Assembly (NCBI RefSeq): GCF_009363855.1
Contig: NZ_CP045423.1
Location: 3,068,001-3,132,000, forward strand
Length of the DNA: 64,000 nucleotides
Direction: 5' to 3'
From: Microvirga thermotolerans
GTDB taxonomy: Bacteria > Pseudomonadota > Alphaproteobacteria > Rhizobiales > Beijerinckiaceae
A model generated the notes under the pieces. That model worked only from the letters and a program-made list of their open reading frames with translations. It ran no database searches and was not told the DNA's origin. Positions 3,175-50,888 of the stretch are shown piece after piece. Made by a program: the position numbers and the translations under genes. Position 1 is the stretch's first letter. Every line of letters starts with the position of its first letter.

Positions 3175-5178
3175 TCAGGTCAGGACGTGACCGAAAGTGT
3201 CGTGATGGGAGACGAAGACATCCTTCGTCCAGGCGTTGGCGTCGACAGTCTCTCCCTGCGCATGGTCGATGAAGGCGACGAGTTCGGTCACAAGGGCCGT
3301 CGGATCGGCTTGCACGGCCTGGGTTCCGTCGGACACCAGATTGGCCTGCAGCAGGATGGAATCCTCGTATGTGCCGCCGCCGATCACATGGCTCGACAGA
3401 GCGCTCGCATCGACGATGACGGCGGAGTTCGATGCAGCGTTTCCCCCCGTCGAGGACCACTGCAGCGACGACCCCTCATCCCGCCATTGCACCGCGACGT
3501 CGGGATCGGAAATCAGGTTGACCTGGTTGATGATGTTCAGATCGTAGTAGTCGCCCGTCACGAACAGGACATCGAGCGTGCCCGACGCGGCGCCCTTGAA
3601 ACCCGACCATGCGCCGCGGTCGACGTCGTCCCGGCTCGCGAGCCCCTCGATCAGTTTCTGCAGCTCGTCCGTCCATGTCCCGAAGCTGGCCGATCCGATG
3701 GTCTGGATCGTGGCCTCGTTGCGAAGCGCGTTCTGTCCGAGGAATGCCTGCGGGGCCCCTCCCTCCCCCTCCGCGCTGCCCAGCCCCACGACGTCATTGT
3801 CCAGCACGACGTTCAGCTGGGAGATGATGTTGGCGGAGTGGTAGTCGCCGAGAACGACGACGATGTCGTACCCCTTGCCCCAGTCGAGGAACTTGGTGAC
3901 GTTGTACTGCTCGTTTCCGCCCGTGCGGACTTCCGAATAGGCCTCCGTCGTCGTCTGCACGGAGACGTCGCCGTCCTGGAGAACGCTTCTCTGCGTCAGC
4001 GCCTTGATGTCGAACAGGTCGCCGGTCACGTAGTCGACGTTGACCGTCAGGTTTCCCTTGTAGGCCTGGGAGCCGGTACCTTCCAGGAGGGTCGTGACCT
4101 TGAAGACGGCGGTGTTGTCGGTGATGTTGCTCCCGCCCTCGAGGATCGGCGGCTGGGATCCCGCATCCAGGACGTGATCCTGGTTCTGCAGAATGTTGGC
4201 CTGGAGGATCGCGTTGGTCGAGAAGTAGTCGCCCCTCACGAGCAGGTTCGCCGGAGCCTCGTTGAAATCGAGGATCAGTGCGGCATTCCCGGCCTTGTTC
4301 GCACCCGTCTCGGCAACATGGCCCGGCTCGGTGTCGGGCTCGCTCCGCTCCGGCAGCGCCGGGACGACGTGGTCCGGCGGCTCGCTCGACGGCGCATCGG
4401 CCTGCTGCAGTTCGCCGTTCACATAACGGCCCGGCGCGACCTCCCCAGGCGAGGCGCTCCCCTCCGCGAGGGAACGGTCGTGAGCGAGAACGTCGTCGAC
4501 CGAGGCATCGCCCAGCCACCCCAGCGGAATCGCCGCCTGAGGGATCAACTCCGTCCCCATGTCGACGAGACGGGAAACAGTCGCGTCCGCGTCGATGGCC
4601 TGAAGGGCGTCGTAGCCTGTGCCTCCGTCGGACACCCGATCATGATCCGACATGGCGTTGACCTGGGTGAGTTTTCCGACGACCCCCGACGGAGGTTCGT
4701 CGTATGAGAGGCTGTAGCTCGGCTCGCGATGTCCTCCATGCCCGCTCCGATCGGGCGCTCCATGCTCGACGGGCCGATGCCCGACATGGACATGCATATA
4801 GCGGATGTGGAGGGATCCGCCGCCGGTCGCAGGACCGTGGAATTGGTCGCCTTCGTCGAGCATCAGGTCCCCATGCCTGCCGGACATGGGGGCGTGGCCT
4901 TCGATCCTGGGGAACCCATGCGAGTGCGCCTTGAGGATGGCAATGTCGATGCCGGATCCAGTCGAAGAAGGGGACAGATTTGCCCGCACGGCTTGACCGG
5001 TCATGTCCGGGATGTCGGCGAAGGGACCGACTGCGTCCGCGGCCTCGACCCGGTACTCGATGTTCTGGGCTTTGTAGAAGGCCTCGTCGTACTTGAGGCG
5101 GGCAGCGGCGTATTCCTGGGCGATGTGCCAATACCCGGCGAAATGCCAGATCATTTCGAGAGCGCCACCAGGGGCCAT
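3175..5178 (-). CDS. Large repeat protein, probable type I secretion cargo
   Basis: A 667-residue protein of unknown function. It has no Sec signal peptide. Residues 1-300 are His-, Gly- and Asp-rich and low in complexity. Residues 295-620 carry five degenerate copies of a composite unit: an Asn-rich half (N-x3-N-x-A/V, for example near 294, 351, 422, 483 and 580) followed by a GDY-x3-N-x2-x-Q-x-N-x4-D-x-D-V half (near 314, 382, 440, 538 and 597). Classic RTX nonapeptides (GGxGxDxxx) are absent. The very C-terminus is hydroxyl-, His- and hydrophobic-rich, as expected for an uncleaved type I signal, although I cannot prove this. Its place directly upstream of the exporter makes secretion likely; a surface or adhesion role is only a guess. 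Confidence 0.75.
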   Translation of the reverse strand: MAPGGALEMIWHFAGYWHIAQEYAAARLKYDEAFYKAQNIEYRVEAADAVGPFADIPDMTGQAVRANLSPSSTGSGIDIAILKAHSHGFPRIEGHAPMSGRHGDLMLDEGDQFHGPATGGGSLHIRYMHVHVGHRPVEHGAPDRSGHGGHREPSYSLSYDEPPSGVVGKLTQVNAMSDHDRVSDGGTGYDALQAIDADATVSRLVDMGTELIPQAAIPLGWLGDASVDDVLAHDRSLAEGSASPGEVAPGRYVNGELQQADAPSSEPPDHVVPALPERSEPDTEPGHVAETGANKAGNAALILDFNEAPANLLVRGDYFSTNAILQANILQNQDHVLDAGSQPPILEGGSNITDNTAVFKVTTLLEGTGSQAYKGNLTVNVDYVTGDLFDIKALTQRSVLQDGDVSVQTTTEAYSEVRTGGNEQYNVTKFLDWGKGYDIVVVLGDYHSANIISQLNVVLDNDVVGLGSAEGEGGAPQAFLGQNALRNEATIQTIGSASFGTWTDELQKLIEGLASRDDVDRGAWSGFKGAASGTLDVLFVTGDYYDLNIINQVNLISDPDVAVQWRDEGSSLQWSSTGGNAASNSAVIVDASALSSHVIGGGTYEDSILLQANLVSDGTQAVQADPTALVTELVAFIDHAQGETVDANAWTKDVFVSHHDTFGHVLT

Positions 5179-5262: not shown

Positions 5263-6324
5263 TCAGCTGTGGTGATCGTCGGTCAGGTCGCCGCCGACCA
5301 CGGTCATGCCGTGGTACTGGATGTTGGCACCCATCGAGATGTTCTGGTTGAACGCCTCGAGGTGAGAGGTCGCGGCAGCGGTCACGCTGGTGTCGACCGC
5401 ACCGTCCTCGCCTGCGCCGGACGCGAAGTCGCCGGACGCGCCGTTGATGCCGCTGGCATCGCCGCCGGTCCATGTGCCGTCCTGGCTCCAGCCCGCATTG
5501 CTGTTCAGGTTCGCGGTGAGCGTATCGTCGTCGGTCATCTCGCTGATCTGGGTGAGGCTGAACGCTTGACCCGCGCCGTCCCCGATCGCCGACAGAACGC
5601 CGTCGAACGTTCCTCCATCGAGATTGATCCAGTTTGTCTCCGAGAAGTTGAAGGAATCCCGGACATCGACGCTCAGGTCGAAGCTGGCCGTGTTGTAGCT
5701 GTCGGTGGGATTATAGCTGTCGTTGATGCTGTGGTCGCTATTGTCGGAATTGTCCGAGTTGTCGTTGTAGCTGTCCGTCGCGTTGTAGCTGTCGTTGACG
5801 CTGTTGTCTGAATTGTCCGAATTGTCCGAATTGTCGTTGTAGCTGTCGTTTGTGCTCTTGTTGTTGAGGACGTCGTTCAACGCCACGTCGACCGTCGTGG
5901 TGTCGCTGTTGTCGTTGTAGCTGTCCGTCGTGCTGTGATCGCTGTTGTCGGAGTTGTCGGAATTGTCGGAATTGTCCGAATTGTCGTTGTAGCTTCCGTT
6001 GGTGCTCTTGTTGTTGAGAGCGTCGTTCAACGCCACGTCGACCGTCGTGGTGTCGCTGTTGTCGTTGTAGCTGTCCGCCGTGCTATTGTCGCTGTTGTCC
6101 GAGTTGTCGGAATTGTCGTTATAGCTGTCGGTTACGCGATTATCGCTGTTGTCGGAGTTATCGCTGTTATCCGAATTGTCGGAGTTGTCGTTGTAGCTGT
6201 CAGTGGTGCTGTTGTCGTTCCGGCTGTCGGTGTTGCTCTCGTCCTCGTAATTCCCGTTCTCCTGGGATGCAAAAGCGAAGCCGGCAATGGCCGCAGCGAT
6301 GTTGCCGTTCTGGTCGGTAGCCAT
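5263..6324 (-). CDS. Asn/Asp/Ser-rich tandem-repeat protein of the type I secretion locus
   Basis: A 353-residue acidic protein of unknown function. After a short non-repetitive N-terminus (MATDQNGNIAAAIAGFAF) come runs of DNS triplets punctuated by DSYN, repeated over about residues 30-210. A nearly identical 50-residue block containing TTTVDVALNDALNN occurs twice. The C-terminal 145 residues are non-repetitive, with Gly, Asp and Thr. There is no Sec signal and there are no membrane segments. The start at 6324 is preferred because GAGGA lies 8 nt upstream; longer in-frame extensions look unlike coding sequence. The gene leads the operon with the large repeat protein, exporter and adaptor, so it is probably a second exported product or a partner. 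Metal-binding or beta-solenoid structure is speculation. Confidence 0.72.
   Translation of the reverse strand: MATDQNGNIAAAIAGFAFASQENGNYEDESNTDSRNDNSTTDSYNDNSDNSDNSDNSDNSDNRVTDSYNDNSDNSDNSDNSTADSYNDNSDTTTVDVALNDALNNKSTNGSYNDNSDNSDNSDNSDNSDHSTTDSYNDNSDTTTVDVALNDVLNNKSTNDSYNDNSDNSDNSDNSVNDSYNATDSYNDNSDNSDNSDHSINDSYNPTDSYNTASFDLSVDVRDSFNFSETNWINLDGGTFDGVLSAIGDGAGQAFSLTQISEMTDDDTLTANLNSNAGWSQDGTWTGGDASGINGASGDFASGAGEDGAVDTSVTAAATSHLEAFNQNISMGANIQYHGMTVVGGDLTDDHHS
5700..6230 (-). repeat. In-gene tandem repeats (9-bp DNS units; 150-bp block duplicated)
   Basis: On the minus strand, 9-bp units reading Asp-Asn-Ser alternate with DSYND blocks. An 83-bp segment at 5852-5934 recurs at 6002-6084 with very few differences. 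The offset is exactly 150 bp (50 codons), so the expansion keeps the frame. Confidence 0.85.
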
Positions 6325-15484: not shown

Positions 15485-17278
15485 ATGTTCACCACACGGC
15501 CAGAAATCCTCGGCACCTTCGGCGTCGTGACGTCGACGCACTGGCTCGCCTCCGCGGCGGGGATGTCGATGCTGGAAAGAAACGGCAACGCGTTCGACGC
15601 CTGCGTCGCGTCCGGTTTCGTCCTCCAGGTCGTCGAGCCCCACCTCGTCGGGCCTGCCGGCGAGGTGCCGGCCGTCTTCTACTCGGCCAGGACCAAGAAG
15701 GTGGAGGTGCTGTGCGGCCAGGGCACCGCGCCGAAGGGCGCGACCATCGAGCATTACCGGCGCGAGGGTCTTTCCCTCATCCCGGGGAACGGCCTCCTCG
15801 CGACTGTCATTCCCGGCGCCTTCGATGCGTGGATGATCCTTCTGCGCGACCATGGCAGCCTCCGTCTGCGCGACGTCCTGGAGCCTGCGATCTACTATGC
15901 CGAGAAGGGGCACCCGCTCCTGCCGCGTGTGTCCGACACGATCAAGGGCCTCAAGAGCTTCTTCGAAACCGAATGGCCGACCTCGGCCGCCGTCTTCCTT
16001 CCCGGCGGGAATGTTCCGGAAGCGCGCAAGCTGTTCCGGAATCCACAGCTGGCCGAGACCTGGAAGCGCATCCTCCGCGAGGCCGAAGCGAAGGGCCGCG
16101 ACCGCGAAGGCGAGATCGAGGCTGCCCGCGAGGCCTTCTACAAAGGCTTTGTCGCGGAAGCGATCGACCGCTTCGCGCGCAGCCACGAGGTGATGGACCA
16201 GTCGGGCTCCCGCCACAGGGGCGTCATCACGGCGGACGACATGGCCTCGTGGTCAGCGAGCTACGACACCCCGCTCACCTACGAGTACCACAATTTCCGC
16301 GTCAACAAGATCCGCCCCTGGGGCCAGGGCCCTGTCTTCCTCCAGACCCTCGCGCTCCTGAAGGGCTTCGACCTCGAGGCGATGGGTCCCACGAGCGCGC
16401 CCTTCATCCACACGGTCGTGGAAGCCATGAAGCTCGCCTTCGCGGACCGCGAGGCCTACTACGGCGATCCGAACTTCGTGAAGGTGCCCGTGGAGACCCT
16501 TCTCTCGGATGCCTACTCGGACGAGCGGCGCAAGCTGATCGGCGAGCGCGCATCTCTCGAACTGCGCCCCGGACATGTGGAGGGGTACGAACTCCAGGTG
16601 GAGCGCACCTTGAAGGCTCTGCGCGAGCTCTCGACCACCGACCGCAAGGTGACCGGGGGGGAGCCGACCCTCGCCTCCATGCGCTCCGCGCGCCGCGGAG
16701 ACACGGTGCACATCGACGTGGTCGACCGGCACGGGAACATGATCGCCGCCATGCCTTCGGGCGGCTGGCTGCAGTCGTCGCCCGTCATCCCGGAGCTGGG
16801 TTTCATGCTCAACTCGCGCGCCCAGATGTTCTGGCTGGAGCCGGGCCTTCCGGCGAGCCTGGAGCCGGGCAAGCGGCCGCGCACCACCCTCACCCCCACC
16901 CTCGCGGAGAAGGACGGCGAACCCTACATGGTGTTCGGCTCCCCGGGCGGCGACCAGCAGGAGCAGTGGCAGTTGCTGCTCTTCCTGCGCCATGCCCATC
17001 ACGGCCTGAACCTGCAGGAAGCCATCGACCTGCCCATGGCCCACACGGCGCATTTCCCGTCCTCGTTCTACCCGCGGGAGCAGAAGCCGGGGCATCTGGC
17101 GGCCGAGGAAACGTTCGGCGCGGAGGTCCTGAACGATCTGCGGGCCCGCGGGCACGAGATCGAGACCATGCCGGCCTGGACGGTGGGACGCCTCGTGGCG
17201 GCAAGCCGCGACAAGGACGGCCTCCTTCACGGCGCGGCCACGCCGCGCCTCATGCAGGCCTACGCCATCGGGCGGTAA
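15485..17278 (+). CDS. Gamma-glutamyltransferase family protein
   Basis: An N-terminal-nucleophile hydrolase, 597 residues. The conserved autoprocessing/catalytic threonine is at about residue 407 (GDTVHIDVVDRHGNMI), followed by the Gly-rich oxyanion region (FGSPGGDQQEQ). Family members cleave gamma-glutamyl bonds (glutathione, gamma-glutamyl peptides) or related acylated substrates. There is no obvious Sec signal, so it may be cytoplasmic, unlike E. coli Ggt. As the last gene of the peptide-importer operon it probably processes the imported compound. A terminator follows. Confidence 0.88.
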   Translation: MFTTRPEILGTFGVVTSTHWLASAAGMSMLERNGNAFDACVASGFVLQVVEPHLVGPAGEVPAVFYSARTKKVEVLCGQGTAPKGATIEHYRREGLSLIPGNGLLATVIPGAFDAWMILLRDHGSLRLRDVLEPAIYYAEKGHPLLPRVSDTIKGLKSFFETEWPTSAAVFLPGGNVPEARKLFRNPQLAETWKRILREAEAKGRDREGEIEAAREAFYKGFVAEAIDRFARSHEVMDQSGSRHRGVITADDMASWSASYDTPLTYEYHNFRVNKIRPWGQGPVFLQTLALLKGFDLEAMGPTSAPFIHTVVEAMKLAFADREAYYGDPNFVKVPVETLLSDAYSDERRKLIGERASLELRPGHVEGYELQVERTLKALRELSTTDRKVTGGEPTLASMRSARRGDTVHIDVVDRHGNMIAAMPSGGWLQSSPVIPELGFMLNSRAQMFWLEPGLPASLEPGKRPRTTLTPTLAEKDGEPYMVFGSPGGDQQEQWQLLLFLRHAHHGLNLQEAIDLPMAHTAHFPSSFYPREQKPGHLAAEETFGAEVLNDLRARGHEIETMPAWTVGRLVAASRDKDGLLHGAATPRLMQAYAIGR

Positions 17279-17289
17279 GCGCCGCAGGG

Positions 17290-17316
17290 AAGCGGGCCCT
17301 CGGTGGGAGCCCGCTT
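17290..17316 (+). terminator. Terminator-like hairpin of the peptide-import operon
   Basis: AAGCGGGC (17290-17297) and GCCCGCTT (17309-17316) form an 8-bp stem 11 bp after the gamma-glutamyltransferase stop. The downstream sequence is only weakly T-rich. Confidence 0.6.
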
Positions 17317-17322
17317 CGTGCC

Positions 17323-17489
17323 TAGAGCGGTTTGCGCTTCGATGGAATCGCACTCCGCTCAGAAGCTCTTGGTTGGCCGCATTTTCGGACGGACCCGGAG
17401 GGCCGCGTCGGCGACCCGGAGGGCCGCGCCAGCGACCCGGAGGGCCGCGCCAGCGAAAACCGGTTTCCACTTCTCCTGAAAATGCTCTA
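17323..17489. repeat. Interspersed TAGAGC...GCTCTA element interrupted by tandem repeats
   Basis: The termini TAGAGC (17323) and GCTCTA (ending 17489) are inverted. Internal stretches (GATGGAATCGCACTCCGCTC, CATTTTCGGACG, AAAACCGGTTTCCACTT, TCCTGAAAATGC) match, from memory, a short palindromic repeat common between genes in Hyphomicrobiales genomes. Here it is split by three 21-bp tandem copies, so it is longer than usual. Confidence 0.65.
17392..17454. repeat. Three 21-bp tandem copies
   Basis: The unit GACCCGGAGGGCCGCG plus CCAGC repeats at 17392-17412 (last bases TCGGC), 17413-17433 and 17434-17454. Copies 2 and 3 are identical. The array sits exactly between TTTTCGGACG and GAAAACCGG of the surrounding interspersed element. 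Confidence 0.9.
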
Positions 17490-17495
17490 TAGCGC

Positions 17496-18722
17496 TCAAC
17501 CGTAACTGCGCTCGTCCGCGATGACCTTTCCGTCGTTCGGCAGGGACCCGGGAGGGACGATCACCACGCGCCCCTTCATCTTGGTGAGGTCCTGGAGCGT
17601 CGCCGCGAGCGCTGCGGCCAGCTCGGGAGAACGGGCCTCGGCGTTCAGGGTCATGACGTCCGCCTCGCCTTCGCGCGTCACCACGAGTCGCAGGCGGCCG
17701 GCCTCGGGATGCCGGCGGCCGATCTCGGCGATCTGCTCGGGCCGCACGAACATGCCCTTCACCTTGGTCGCCTGATCGGCCCGCCCCATCCATCCCTTGA
17801 TGCGCATGTTGGTGCGGCCGCAGGGGCTCGCGCCCGGCATGACCGCGCTCAAGTCGCCCAGGGCGAGGCGGATCCAGGGGCGGTGCCCGTCGAGGGTCGT
17901 CACGACCACCTCGCCCACGTCGCCCTCCGGGACCGGATCGCCGGTCCCGGGCCGCACGATCTCCACGATGATGTCCTCGTTGACCACGAGCCCTTCCCGG
18001 GCGGGTGTCTCGTAGGCGACGAAGCCGAGATCCGCCGTCGCATAGGCCTGGAAGGCCTCGACCCCGCGCCGCGCGAACTCCTCCTGGAGGGAGCGCGGAA
18101 AGGCGGCGCCCGATACCAGCGCCCGCCGGATGCAGGAAAGATCCCGTCCGGCCGACTCCGCACCGTCCAGCAGGATCTTCAGGAAATCCGGCGTTCCCAC
18201 ATAGGCGACCGGCCGGTAGGCCTCGATGAGCTCATATTGCTGCTCCACGTTGCCGGAGCCGGCGGGAATGACCGCGCAGCCCAGGCTCCGCGCCCCTGAA
18301 TCCATGATGAAGCCGCCCGGAGTCATGTGGTAGCTCAGGGTGTTGAGCACGATGTCGCCCTTCCGGAAACCCGCGGCGTGAAGGCCGCGCGCCGCACGCC
18401 ATGGGTCCGGCCCCGTGGATTCCGGCTCGAAGATCGGCCCCGGCGATGTGAAGAGGCGACCGAAGGTCCCGGCCGGCTCCGGGACAAGGCCCCCGAACGG
18501 CATCCGCCCCTTCTGCCGTGCGGGGAGATCGGACTTGCGCAAAACCGGCAGGCGCGAGAGGGCCTCGCGGCTCGTCACTCCGTCCGGGTCGATGCCCGCC
18601 AGATGCTCGGCATATCCGGGCGCCTGCAGGGCCCGCTTCAGGATGCCGGGCAGGCGCGCGAAGAGATCCGCCTCGCGTTCGGTATGGCTGCGCGTTTCGA
18701 GCGCGTCGAAGAACTCGGTCAC
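17496..18722 (-). CDS. Phenylacetate-CoA ligase family AMP-binding protein
   Basis: Adenylate-forming acyl-CoA ligase of the PaaK type, 408 residues. It would activate an aryl or other organic acid with ATP and CoA in the cytoplasm. Visible features are the phosphate-loop position (LFTSPGPIFEPESTGPDPW), the AMP-site region (YATADLGFVAYE), the hinge (GRADQATKVKGMFVRPEQI) and the C-terminal PaaK-type domain ending KVIADERSYG. The phosphate loop lacks the usual Ser/Thr/Gly/Lys-rich sequence, as seen in several PaaK-like paralogues. It lies 25 bp after livF as the last gene of the liv-type operon, so it probably acts on the imported acid. Confidence 0.85.
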   Translation of the reverse strand: MTEFFDALETRSHTEREADLFARLPGILKRALQAPGYAEHLAGIDPDGVTSREALSRLPVLRKSDLPARQKGRMPFGGLVPEPAGTFGRLFTSPGPIFEPESTGPDPWRAARGLHAAGFRKGDIVLNTLSYHMTPGGFIMDSGARSLGCAVIPAGSGNVEQQYELIEAYRPVAYVGTPDFLKILLDGAESAGRDLSCIRRALVSGAAFPRSLQEEFARRGVEAFQAYATADLGFVAYETPAREGLVVNEDIIVEIVRPGTGDPVPEGDVGEVVVTTLDGHRPWIRLALGDLSAVMPGASPCGRTNMRIKGWMGRADQATKVKGMFVRPEQIAEIGRRHPEAGRLRLVVTREGEADVMTLNAEARSPELAAALAATLQDLTKMKGRVVIVPPGSLPNDGKVIADERSYG

Positions 18723-49775: not shown

Positions 49776-50888
49776 GTGATCGAGACCGTCATGATCTTCG
49801 CGCTGGGGTTCCTCGCGGCAACCCTGATCGCGCTTCTCGTCATCCCGGCGATCAACGGCCGCGCGGAGCGCCTGGCGCGCCGCCGGGCCGAGGCCCTGTT
49901 CCCCATGTCCATCGAGGAGCTCACCGCGGAGAAGGATCATCTGCGGGCGGAGTTCGCGGTGCTGCAGCGGCGGCTCGAGCGCAAGGCCGAGGAAGCCCAG
50001 GCGGTCAAGCACGAGAGCATGGAGGAGCTCGGCCGCCGCGCCCTCAGGATCCAGGAGCTGACGGACACGCTTGCCGAGCGCGACGGGACCATCGCCGCCC
50101 TGGAGGCCGAGCTGAAGGCGACGAAGGACACCCTCGCCGCGACCGCGGAGGAGCTGGCGCAGACCCGCGCCTCCCTCGCAGGCGCGCGCGAAACCCTGGC
50201 GGCCCTGGAGAACGCGCACCGGGCGACCCTGGACGAGCTCTCCAACACCCGGCGGGAGCTCGACGGCGCGCAGTCGGACCTGACCCGGACGAGGGCTTCC
50301 CTCGAACGCGCGGAGGAAAGGGCGACGGAGCGCGATGCGGCCCACAGGGACGCGGAGGAGCGGCTGAGCGCGGCCCTGGGCGAGCTCGACGTGAAGCGGA
50401 TCACGATTTCCGACCTCGAGACGCGGCTCATGACCCAGACGGCCCGCGGCAACGATTTCGAGCGCGCCCTCAACGAGCGCCACAGCGAGCTTTCCGACGA
50501 GCGCAAGCGGCTGACGGAGCTTGCGAGGAGCCTCTCGGCCGAGCAGGAGCGCGGGCTGATCCTCGAGCAGCGCATCCGCGAGCTGGAAGCGGAGCGGGAT
50601 GAAAAGGCTTCCGCCGTCGCCGCCCTCACGGCGAAGCTCGCCGCAGCGGAGGGCGCGAAGGACGGGCCCTCCGCGCAACCGCCGGCGGACGCCGGGATCG
50701 ACGATCTGCGCCGCCAGATCGTGGAACTGGCCGACCGGATCGTCACGGACGGCAAGGATCGCAGGGCGGGCGGCCGGAACGGCAAGGCCCAGAGCGCCAA
50801 GGATCAAGGCGCCAAGGATCAAGGCGCCAAGGATCAAGGCGCCAAGGACCAGCCGGCCAGGCCCGGCCGACGCCGGCGCGCCGGCTGA
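49776..50888 (+). CDS. Membrane-anchored coiled-coil protein
   Basis: A 370-residue protein of unknown function. One N-terminal membrane helix (MIFALGFLAATLIALLVIPAI, about 6-26) is followed by a continuous coiled coil (about 45-300) rich in Glu, Arg, Ala and Leu. The basic, disordered tail contains four AKDQ(G/P) repeats and ends RPGRRRRAG. Such architecture suggests a structural or septum/envelope-associated role; none is proven. It follows eipA by 92 bp on the same strand and could be co-regulated with it. Confidence 0.8.
   Translation: MIETVMIFALGFLAATLIALLVIPAINGRAERLARRRAEALFPMSIEELTAEKDHLRAEFAVLQRRLERKAEEAQAVKHESMEELGRRALRIQELTDTLAERDGTIAALEAELKATKDTLAATAEELAQTRASLAGARETLAALENAHRATLDELSNTRRELDGAQSDLTRTRASLERAEERATERDAAHRDAEERLSAALGELDVKRITISDLETRLMTQTARGNDFERALNERHSELSDERKRLTELARSLSAEQERGLILEQRIRELEAERDEKASAVAALTAKLAAAEGAKDGPSAQPPADAGIDDLRRQIVELADRIVTDGKDRRAGGRNGKAQSAKDQGAKDQGAKDQGAKDQPARPGRRRRAG
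50796..50852 (+). repeat. 15-bp tandem repeat encoding AKDQG
   Basis: GCCAAGGATCAAGGC is repeated at 50796-50810, 50811-50825 and 50826-50840. A diverged fourth copy (GCCAAGGACCAG) starts at 50841. The copies are in frame with the coiled-coil gene and lie in its basic tail, a likely site of length variation between strains. Confidence 0.9.

Follow-up and report, generated by a model that had tools for sequence, protein, structure and literature searches.

A variable 21-bp tandem module in a two-hairpin interspersed element of Microvirga thermotolerans, probably a selfish repeat of BOX-like build

Results

The element and its neighbours

The DNA analysed here (the window) is a stretch of 64,000 nucleotides from the genome of Microvirga thermotolerans. 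A short palindromic element lies in it between two convergent genes (Table 1), the first of which we take to encode a gamma-glutamyltransferase-like protein and the second, presumably, an AMP-forming CoA-ligase-like enzyme. Its ends are an exact TAGAGC and an exact GCTCTA, with terminal arms 82% complementary over 11 nt. In the predicted fold of this copy, GCATTTTC of hairpin 2 is paired with positions 17478-17485. The earlier note had placed three 21-bp units, two of them identical, between TTTTCGGACG and GAAAACCGG, and this reading is exact: the array occupies 17392-17454, TTTTCGGACG ending at 17391 and GAAAACCGG starting at 17455, and Tandem Repeats Finder reports 17392-17456 with a period of 21, 3.1 copies, 95% matches and a score of 116. 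Forms of the element are written below as x/y, for x units on the 5' arm and y units on the 3' arm of hairpin 2; the window copy is 3/0. Neither positions 16800-18000 of the window nor eight loci gave a match to Rfam at the gathering score.

Table 1. Coordinates of the element, its parts and the flanking genes in the window.
Feature	Position	Strand	Remarks
Upstream gene, 597 aa	15485..17278	+	Stop 44 bp ahead of the element
Whole element, TAGAGC...GCTCTA	17323..17489	+	167 bp; three-unit form 3/0
Hairpin 1	17325..17360	+	Arms 17325-17340 and 17345-17360; 16 nt; 81% complementary; in the MFE structure
Spacer between hairpins 1 and 2	17361..17378	+	From sequence and fold
Hairpin 2, outer 5' arm GCATTTTC and bases to the junction	17379..17391	+	From sequence and fold
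Unit 1	17392..17412	+	Two changes relative to units 2 and 3; unit 1 of copy L009 has an identical sequence
Unit 2	17413..17433	+	Identical to unit 3
Unit 3	17434..17454	+	Innermost, adjoins the core; identical to unit 2
Hairpin 2 core GAAAACCGGTTTCCACTTCTC	17455..17475	+	A variant form of the core found across the order
Hairpin 2, outer 3' arm (GAAAATGC, 17478-17485) and terminal GCTCTA	17476..17489	+	Unit-free arm
Convergent gene, 408 aa	17496..18722	-	Stop 6 bp past the element

Elsewhere in the window, a minus-strand gene (5263-6324) contains an extended, imperfect array (5692-6237) whose 9-bp units resemble TTGTCGGAA, with higher periods of 72, 78 and 150 bp, and a perfect 15-bp tandem repeat of 3.7 copies (50794-50848) lies within a plus-strand gene (49776-50888).

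Copies in the M. thermotolerans genome

The genome was searched with two queries, the three-unit element and an idealised form lacking units, and the resulting copy numbers are lower bounds, since the best 40 of 122 and the best 40 of 75 candidates were scored. At least 36 copies are near-complete. When these were read individually and tabulated, as the earlier note had proposed, they turned out not to be all alike: 15 carry no unit, nine carry one, nine carry two and three carry three, always at one shared junction, so that 21 of the 36 bear units. Their lengths cluster near 104, 125, 146 and 167 bp, in steps of about 21 bp. Some units are irregular: the first unit of L008 and the second of L010 are shortened, and one extra base is present in the single unit of L013 and of L026 and in the second unit of L003. 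Another eight copies (L172-L179) are incomplete or degraded, and sister forms occupy two sites, one with two units (L181) and one with a single unit on each arm, degraded (L183). A parser based on the core, which omits some degenerate cores and takes in others beyond the near-complete set, found 43 cores with 0, 1, 2 and 3 units in 20, 9, 11 and 3 cases.

The unit pattern, at up to three mismatches, matched 40 times in the 3.82-Mb genome, as against none for a reversed-pattern control, which indicates that the array is not due to chance. Element copies account for 32 of these matches, the sister forms L181 and L183 for two, and six lie elsewhere, one of them (1200622) in what appears by eye to be coding sequence.

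Distribution in Microvirga and the Hyphomicrobiales

The core of hairpin 2, GAAAACCGGTTCCCACTTTTC, was found with at most one mismatch in 37 of the 121 sampled genomes of the order and in 30 of 85 genera (a reversed-pattern control gave one match in the table), so the element had rightly been recognised as a familiar one of the Hyphomicrobiales. Nine core loci were read (L306-L314, L312 being that of M. thermotolerans). Three of them (L307, L310 and L311) have the two-hairpin plan without a unit, and in L306, whose genome belongs to another family, a unit-like stretch (CACCGAAGGTCCGCGAAGC) precedes the core at the equivalent position of the arm. A piece of 40 bp from the right-hand side of the window element matched 50 plasmid records, 47 of them from Sinorhizobium (with matches at 90%); the one plasmid locus that was read (L324) is unit-free.

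The unit together with the core, at up to three mismatches, was present in two of 397 genomes of the order, namely M. thermotolerans, the sole Microvirga member of this sample, and one genome of another genus, with three mismatches. In its usual form, the unit thus looks almost confined to Microvirga. The stretch in L306 would escape the unit-plus-core pattern, which calls for caution before the unit is labelled as strictly genus-bound. In three genomes of other Hyphomicrobiales families (G049, G061 and G064) the core itself is repeated in tandem at a spacing of about 54-60 bp, so that whole hairpins can form arrays too.

In other Microvirga genomes, where copy numbers are again lower bounds (at most the best 18 candidates were scored per genome), units stand on either arm of hairpin 2, 5' or 3', or on both. 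Among 103 parsed cores, which were picked by pattern and tell which forms exist, not how frequent they are, we read the forms 0/0 (18), 1/0 (20), 0/1 (28), 1/1 (10), 2/0 (12), 0/2 (9), 1/2 (3), 3/0 (1), 0/3 (1) and 3/1 (1). The 3'-arm pattern occurs in at most 38 of 48 Microvirga genomes, M. thermotolerans included, an upper figure because at two mismatches the pattern also catches 5'-arm units on the reverse strand; the two-armed pattern occurs in 18 of the same 48. In M. thermotolerans the 5' arm alone is used in all 23 parsed unit-bearing cores, the degraded two-armed site L183 having been seen by eye. One Microvirga genome (G026; L247 and L248) contains four identical units and a truncated fifth next to a sequence gap, as well as 3/0 and 3/1 forms near one another.

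Probable target sites and shared stop codons

The neighbours of 45 of 46 M. thermotolerans copies (L029 has no left neighbour) were taken from a home-made gene finder: the flanking genes are convergent at 17 copies, tandem at 22 and divergent at six. The proportion of convergent sites (17 of 45) compares with seven of 30 window gaps longer than 60 bp (p 0.22) and with 12 of all 61 window gaps (p 0.048); an excess of convergent sites is therefore not firm, as it depends on the background chosen. Apart from shared stop codons, 43 of the 45 copies are intergenic, and two overlap a start given by this crude gene finder. In 12 of the 45, the TAG stop of a neighbouring gene is the element's own terminal TAG, the gene ends that face an element numbering 56 (17 x 2 + 22). 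The suggestion that a 21-bp length would keep reading frames if the element landed in a gene finds no support in these positions.

For six of the twelve stop-sharing genes, we sought orthologues in six Microvirga genomes. The orthologues end at the same codon in four of four cases for L004, four of five for L011, one of two for L012 and four of five placed for L173, whose G040 row has no placed stop. At L006 the orthologue ends 18 bases earlier in four of four cases, and at L178 it ends 3 to 39 bases later in five of five; these shifts indicate that not all terminal stops are clean replacements. At L003, the orthologue in G023 ends in E-D-TAA and the M. thermotolerans gene in E-D-TAG, with the TAG supplied by the element, and G023 has a differently formed element further along the same gap. 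Many orthologues stop at the shared codon without any element. In G010 and G011 an element stands where the L173 orthologue stops, and in G025 one stands where the L006 orthologue stops. The stop of the L173 gene (presumably recN-like; position 2809085 in M. thermotolerans) bears elements of differing type in three Microvirga genomes (with L280 and L281), a recurrent insertion site.

The base preceding the element is C in 27 of 34 cases, and the ends of the element are TA in 24 of 35 cases on the left and 25 of 33 on the right. The window site is empty in M. puerhi, which has kept the convergent pair, its stops 52 bp apart (DNA identity 82.5% and 74.8%). No direct case of a target duplication was seen, and no aligned empty site displays one. 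The composition of the ends points to TA as the putative insertion target, and the stop codons TAG and TAA may be TA sites that a GC-rich genome can spare.

Past the ligase-like gene (from about position 4230 on), 17 of 19 Microvirga loci (L061-L069 and L071-L078) share a conserved stretch, with a AGAGCACC...GGTGCTCT hairpin followed by GGTGTCCGGCCGTAGGGGCAAAA...GACCGG and more conserved blocks; L070 and L094 are without it. This stretch may be a structured RNA; it gave no Rfam match at the gathering score in L061 or L064.

Candidate mobilising elements

Among the families sought (Y1 transposases and the IS630 type), we found no mobiliser of the element. The M. thermotolerans genome gave no match to Y1_Tnp (PF01797), the RAYT type, and an assignment to the REP/RAYT system was rejected for this reason. 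It contains one IS630-type (DDE_3) gene, in an insertion sequence whose ends are TAATACCA; like ends are present in four of five plasmid relatives read (L319, L321, L322 and L323), and none were found in L320. The IS630 copy interrupts a 256-bp stretch in L305 (1418179-1421589 of the genome), of which positions 693-872 and 2030-2106 remain on either side. Its two ends are inverted repeats 36 bases long (alike at 28), starting TAGAGCGGTTTG and TGGAGTGGTTTG, and the two repeats agree with the left end of the element at 21 and 20 of 26 bases, compared with at most 17 of 26 over 127,150 positions in the rest of the window. As the insertion sequence ends at TAATACCA, inside these element-like repeats, we regard it as a passenger and rejected it as the partner of the element. 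The 256-bp stretch has no known transposase and neither of its parts matches the plasmid collection; it is perhaps a relic of the mobiliser, or another non-autonomous relative.

Changes in unit number

A tree of the 36 M. thermotolerans copies, built from their non-array parts, implies 13 changes in unit number (the minimum being three), whereas shuffled labels gave a mean of 18.2 and never, in 200 shuffles, a number as low as 13. Unit number therefore appears to be inherited in part and changed in part. Support for the tree, in which the left part of L003 is nine bases short, is weak: two of its 32 inner branches are starred. Three-unit copies occupy three places in it, a scatter equal to the shuffle expectation, and a single origin of the three-unit form is compatible with the starred branches of this weakly supported tree. 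The four copies nearest to that of the window (L018, L022, L024 and L025), in a ranking that covers copies with both exact ends, are all unit-free and differ from it by three bases per 100 outer bases.

Four orthologous loci could be compared between species. The two closest, at 90-92% flanking identity, have equal forms (2/0 in L212 and L215; 1/0 in L147 and L148). The two more distant ones, at lower flanking identity, differ: L153, L242 and L144 (the last inverted) are 1/0, 0/1 and 1/1 at one stop codon, and L160, L168 and L225 (the last inverted) are 1/0, 0/0 and 0/1 in one gap, L160 and L168 having the right-hand junction in common. As the outer arms also differ at both of these loci, separate insertions or replacement are as likely as a change in place, and slippage in place was not seen at any of the four.

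Ten of the 12 M. thermotolerans arrays were compared unit by unit (L008 and L010, which have deletions, were excluded, and unit 2 of L003 was taken without its extra base). The average difference is 0.92 bases between neighbouring units of an array and 1.08 between units taken from separate elements; between elements, innermost units differ by 0.36 bases and outermost units by 1.78. From these averages, the arrays look mostly inherited or exchanged rather than newly duplicated.

Folding of the unit and alternative explanations of the array

The idealised unit-free element is predicted to fold strongly into its two hairpins (z -3.8). An isolated unit would form two mini-hairpins, CCC-NNN-GGG and CGC-GNNA-GCG, with a z-score of about 0, like shuffled sequences. 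When the window copy is folded as a whole, the prediction pairs the units among themselves and retains hairpin 1 together with hairpin 2's outer stem (z -0.63; -2.35 on the opposite strand).

An alternative reading gives the unit a function at the RNA or DNA level, as mini-hairpins that bind protein or regulate and are maintained by selection; unit number would then tune the expression of neighbouring genes, as reported for boxB. Among 198 units, positions 14 and 21, predicted to pair in one of the mini-hairpins, are G-C in 161, A-T in 33, and G-T and A-C in two each, so that paired changes far exceed the four single ones; positions 3 and 11, a predicted pair of the other, covary weakly (C-G 184, A-T 5, others 9). 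In addition, the units vary mainly at the predicted loops (positions 6-8 and 17-18), which are positions that the search pattern left free. However, the paired changes are a hint only, as they may descend from one or a few events, and the M. thermotolerans copies span zero to three units. Convergent settings, moreover, hold 13 of 29 unit-bearing and four of 16 unit-free copies (raw counts), and a consensus scan of the window copy gave neither a sigma-70-type promoter nor an intrinsic terminator. On balance, we consider a functional module unlikely.

A different possibility, which we put forward tentatively and think improbable, is that the 21-bp unit is a self-standing module copied into a fixed site between CG and GAAAA. 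As this site is present as an inverted repeat on both arms of hairpin 2, such copying would account for units on either arm or on both, and it would fit the single orientation of the units towards GAAAA and the steps of 21 bp, about two helical turns. If true, this would be a site-specific system of a module within an element, going beyond slippage alone.

Units on both arms might also be matched extensions of one long hairpin, kept by selection or made by template switching. The 1/1 forms do carry inverted copies of the unit on both arms, and at 99 such sites (one of 100 rows, the reverse strand of a listed site, was dropped) the arms are on average identical at 17.28 of 21 positions. Yet arms dealt at random reach 17.43 within genomes and 17.59 over all (the observed value being reached in 4649 and 4954 of 5000 shuffles, respectively), and three of the 99 pairs are perfect. 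Since the arms match no better than random ones, a long stem kept by selection or arm-to-arm copying is disfavoured; one-armed forms in many genomes and the exclusive use of the 5' arm in the 23 parsed cores of M. thermotolerans also speak against this explanation, which seems to us very improbable. Finally, the view of the earlier note that the array had inserted or grown as a minisatellite at this one copy, to which the identity of units 2 and 3 lends some colour, is rejected as next to impossible by the unit at one junction in 21 of 36 copies and in other Microvirga genomes.

Discussion

The element examined here can be set beside several known families of repeats. The BOX elements of Streptococcus pneumoniae have the structure boxA-(boxB)n-boxC with a variable tandem number of boxB, are intergenic and are thought to be mobile and parasitic; boxB is predicted to fold largely independently of the other modules (PMC3049150). 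The Microvirga element is likewise dispersed and intergenic, with outer modules around a variable inner tandem (zero to three units in 36 copies). It differs from BOX in its host, its GC-rich 21-bp unit, the use of either or both arms and its stop-codon ends. The Microvirga element is thus BOX-like in build, likened by design and not by sequence, and we do not file it as BOX.

In being short, with no gene of its own seen, and in having a TAGAGC/GCTCTA terminal inverted repeat, a unit-free form that folds strongly and a TA-like target, the element is reminiscent of MITEs; in contrast to these, it is GC-rich (the units above all) and not AT-rich, its exact terminal repeat is 6 bp only, and no partner insertion sequence was found among the families sought. 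REP, BIME and REPIN sequences are high-copy extragenic palindromes associated with a RAYT transposase. The Microvirga element is also a high-copy extragenic palindrome, but it occurs in a genome without Y1_Tnp and has a larger, two-hairpin unit.

The RIME and related palindromic repeats of rhizobia are intergenic, and their function has been called unknown (PMC2573895). The Microvirga element resembles them as an intergenic palindromic repeat in the same order, a likeness of description and not of sequence. To our knowledge, a variable 21-bp module is not a feature of RIME-type repeats. Among the papers listed by searches of the open-licence PMC literature, none deals in its title or listed abstract with the element or with interspersed repeats of Microvirga, and the two papers that contain a piece of its sequence concern mouse and human disease by their titles.

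Taken together, our observations are best explained by a non-autonomous two-hairpin element of the Hyphomicrobiales that carries a BOX-like modular array and is probably selfish and tolerated downstream of genes, a reading to which we assign a probability of about 0.7. Short, palindromic and intergenic, the element follows a plan of TAGAGC, hairpin 1, spacer, hairpin 2 and GCTCTA, and in Microvirga its hairpin 2 bears a variable count of the 21-bp module at a fixed junction of the arm, CG-(unit)n-GAAAAC. It would spread by insertion at TA, usually after C and often at the TA of a stop codon, presumably mobilised by a transposase that targets TA. The element's own end would then restore the stop codon, making the insertion cheap for the host. 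Unit number would change occasionally, most likely by slipped-strand mispairing or by recombination between copies, and would be inherited between changes. The array is probably without function for the cell, and it may be tolerated because the units can fold on themselves and leave both hairpin 1 and hairpin 2's outer stem undisturbed.

The published BOX-like modular repeats considered here are streptococcal, and a similar design is now found in an alphaproteobacterial genus. Two points set it apart from BOX: the module can stand on either arm of one hairpin, and the ends of the element double as stop codons. The natural series of forms, which runs from zero to three units and places them on one arm (5' or 3') or on both, is well suited to tests of module gain and loss, and also to asking whether the number of modules affects mRNA ends. 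Unit number could, moreover, act as a typing marker in Microvirga.
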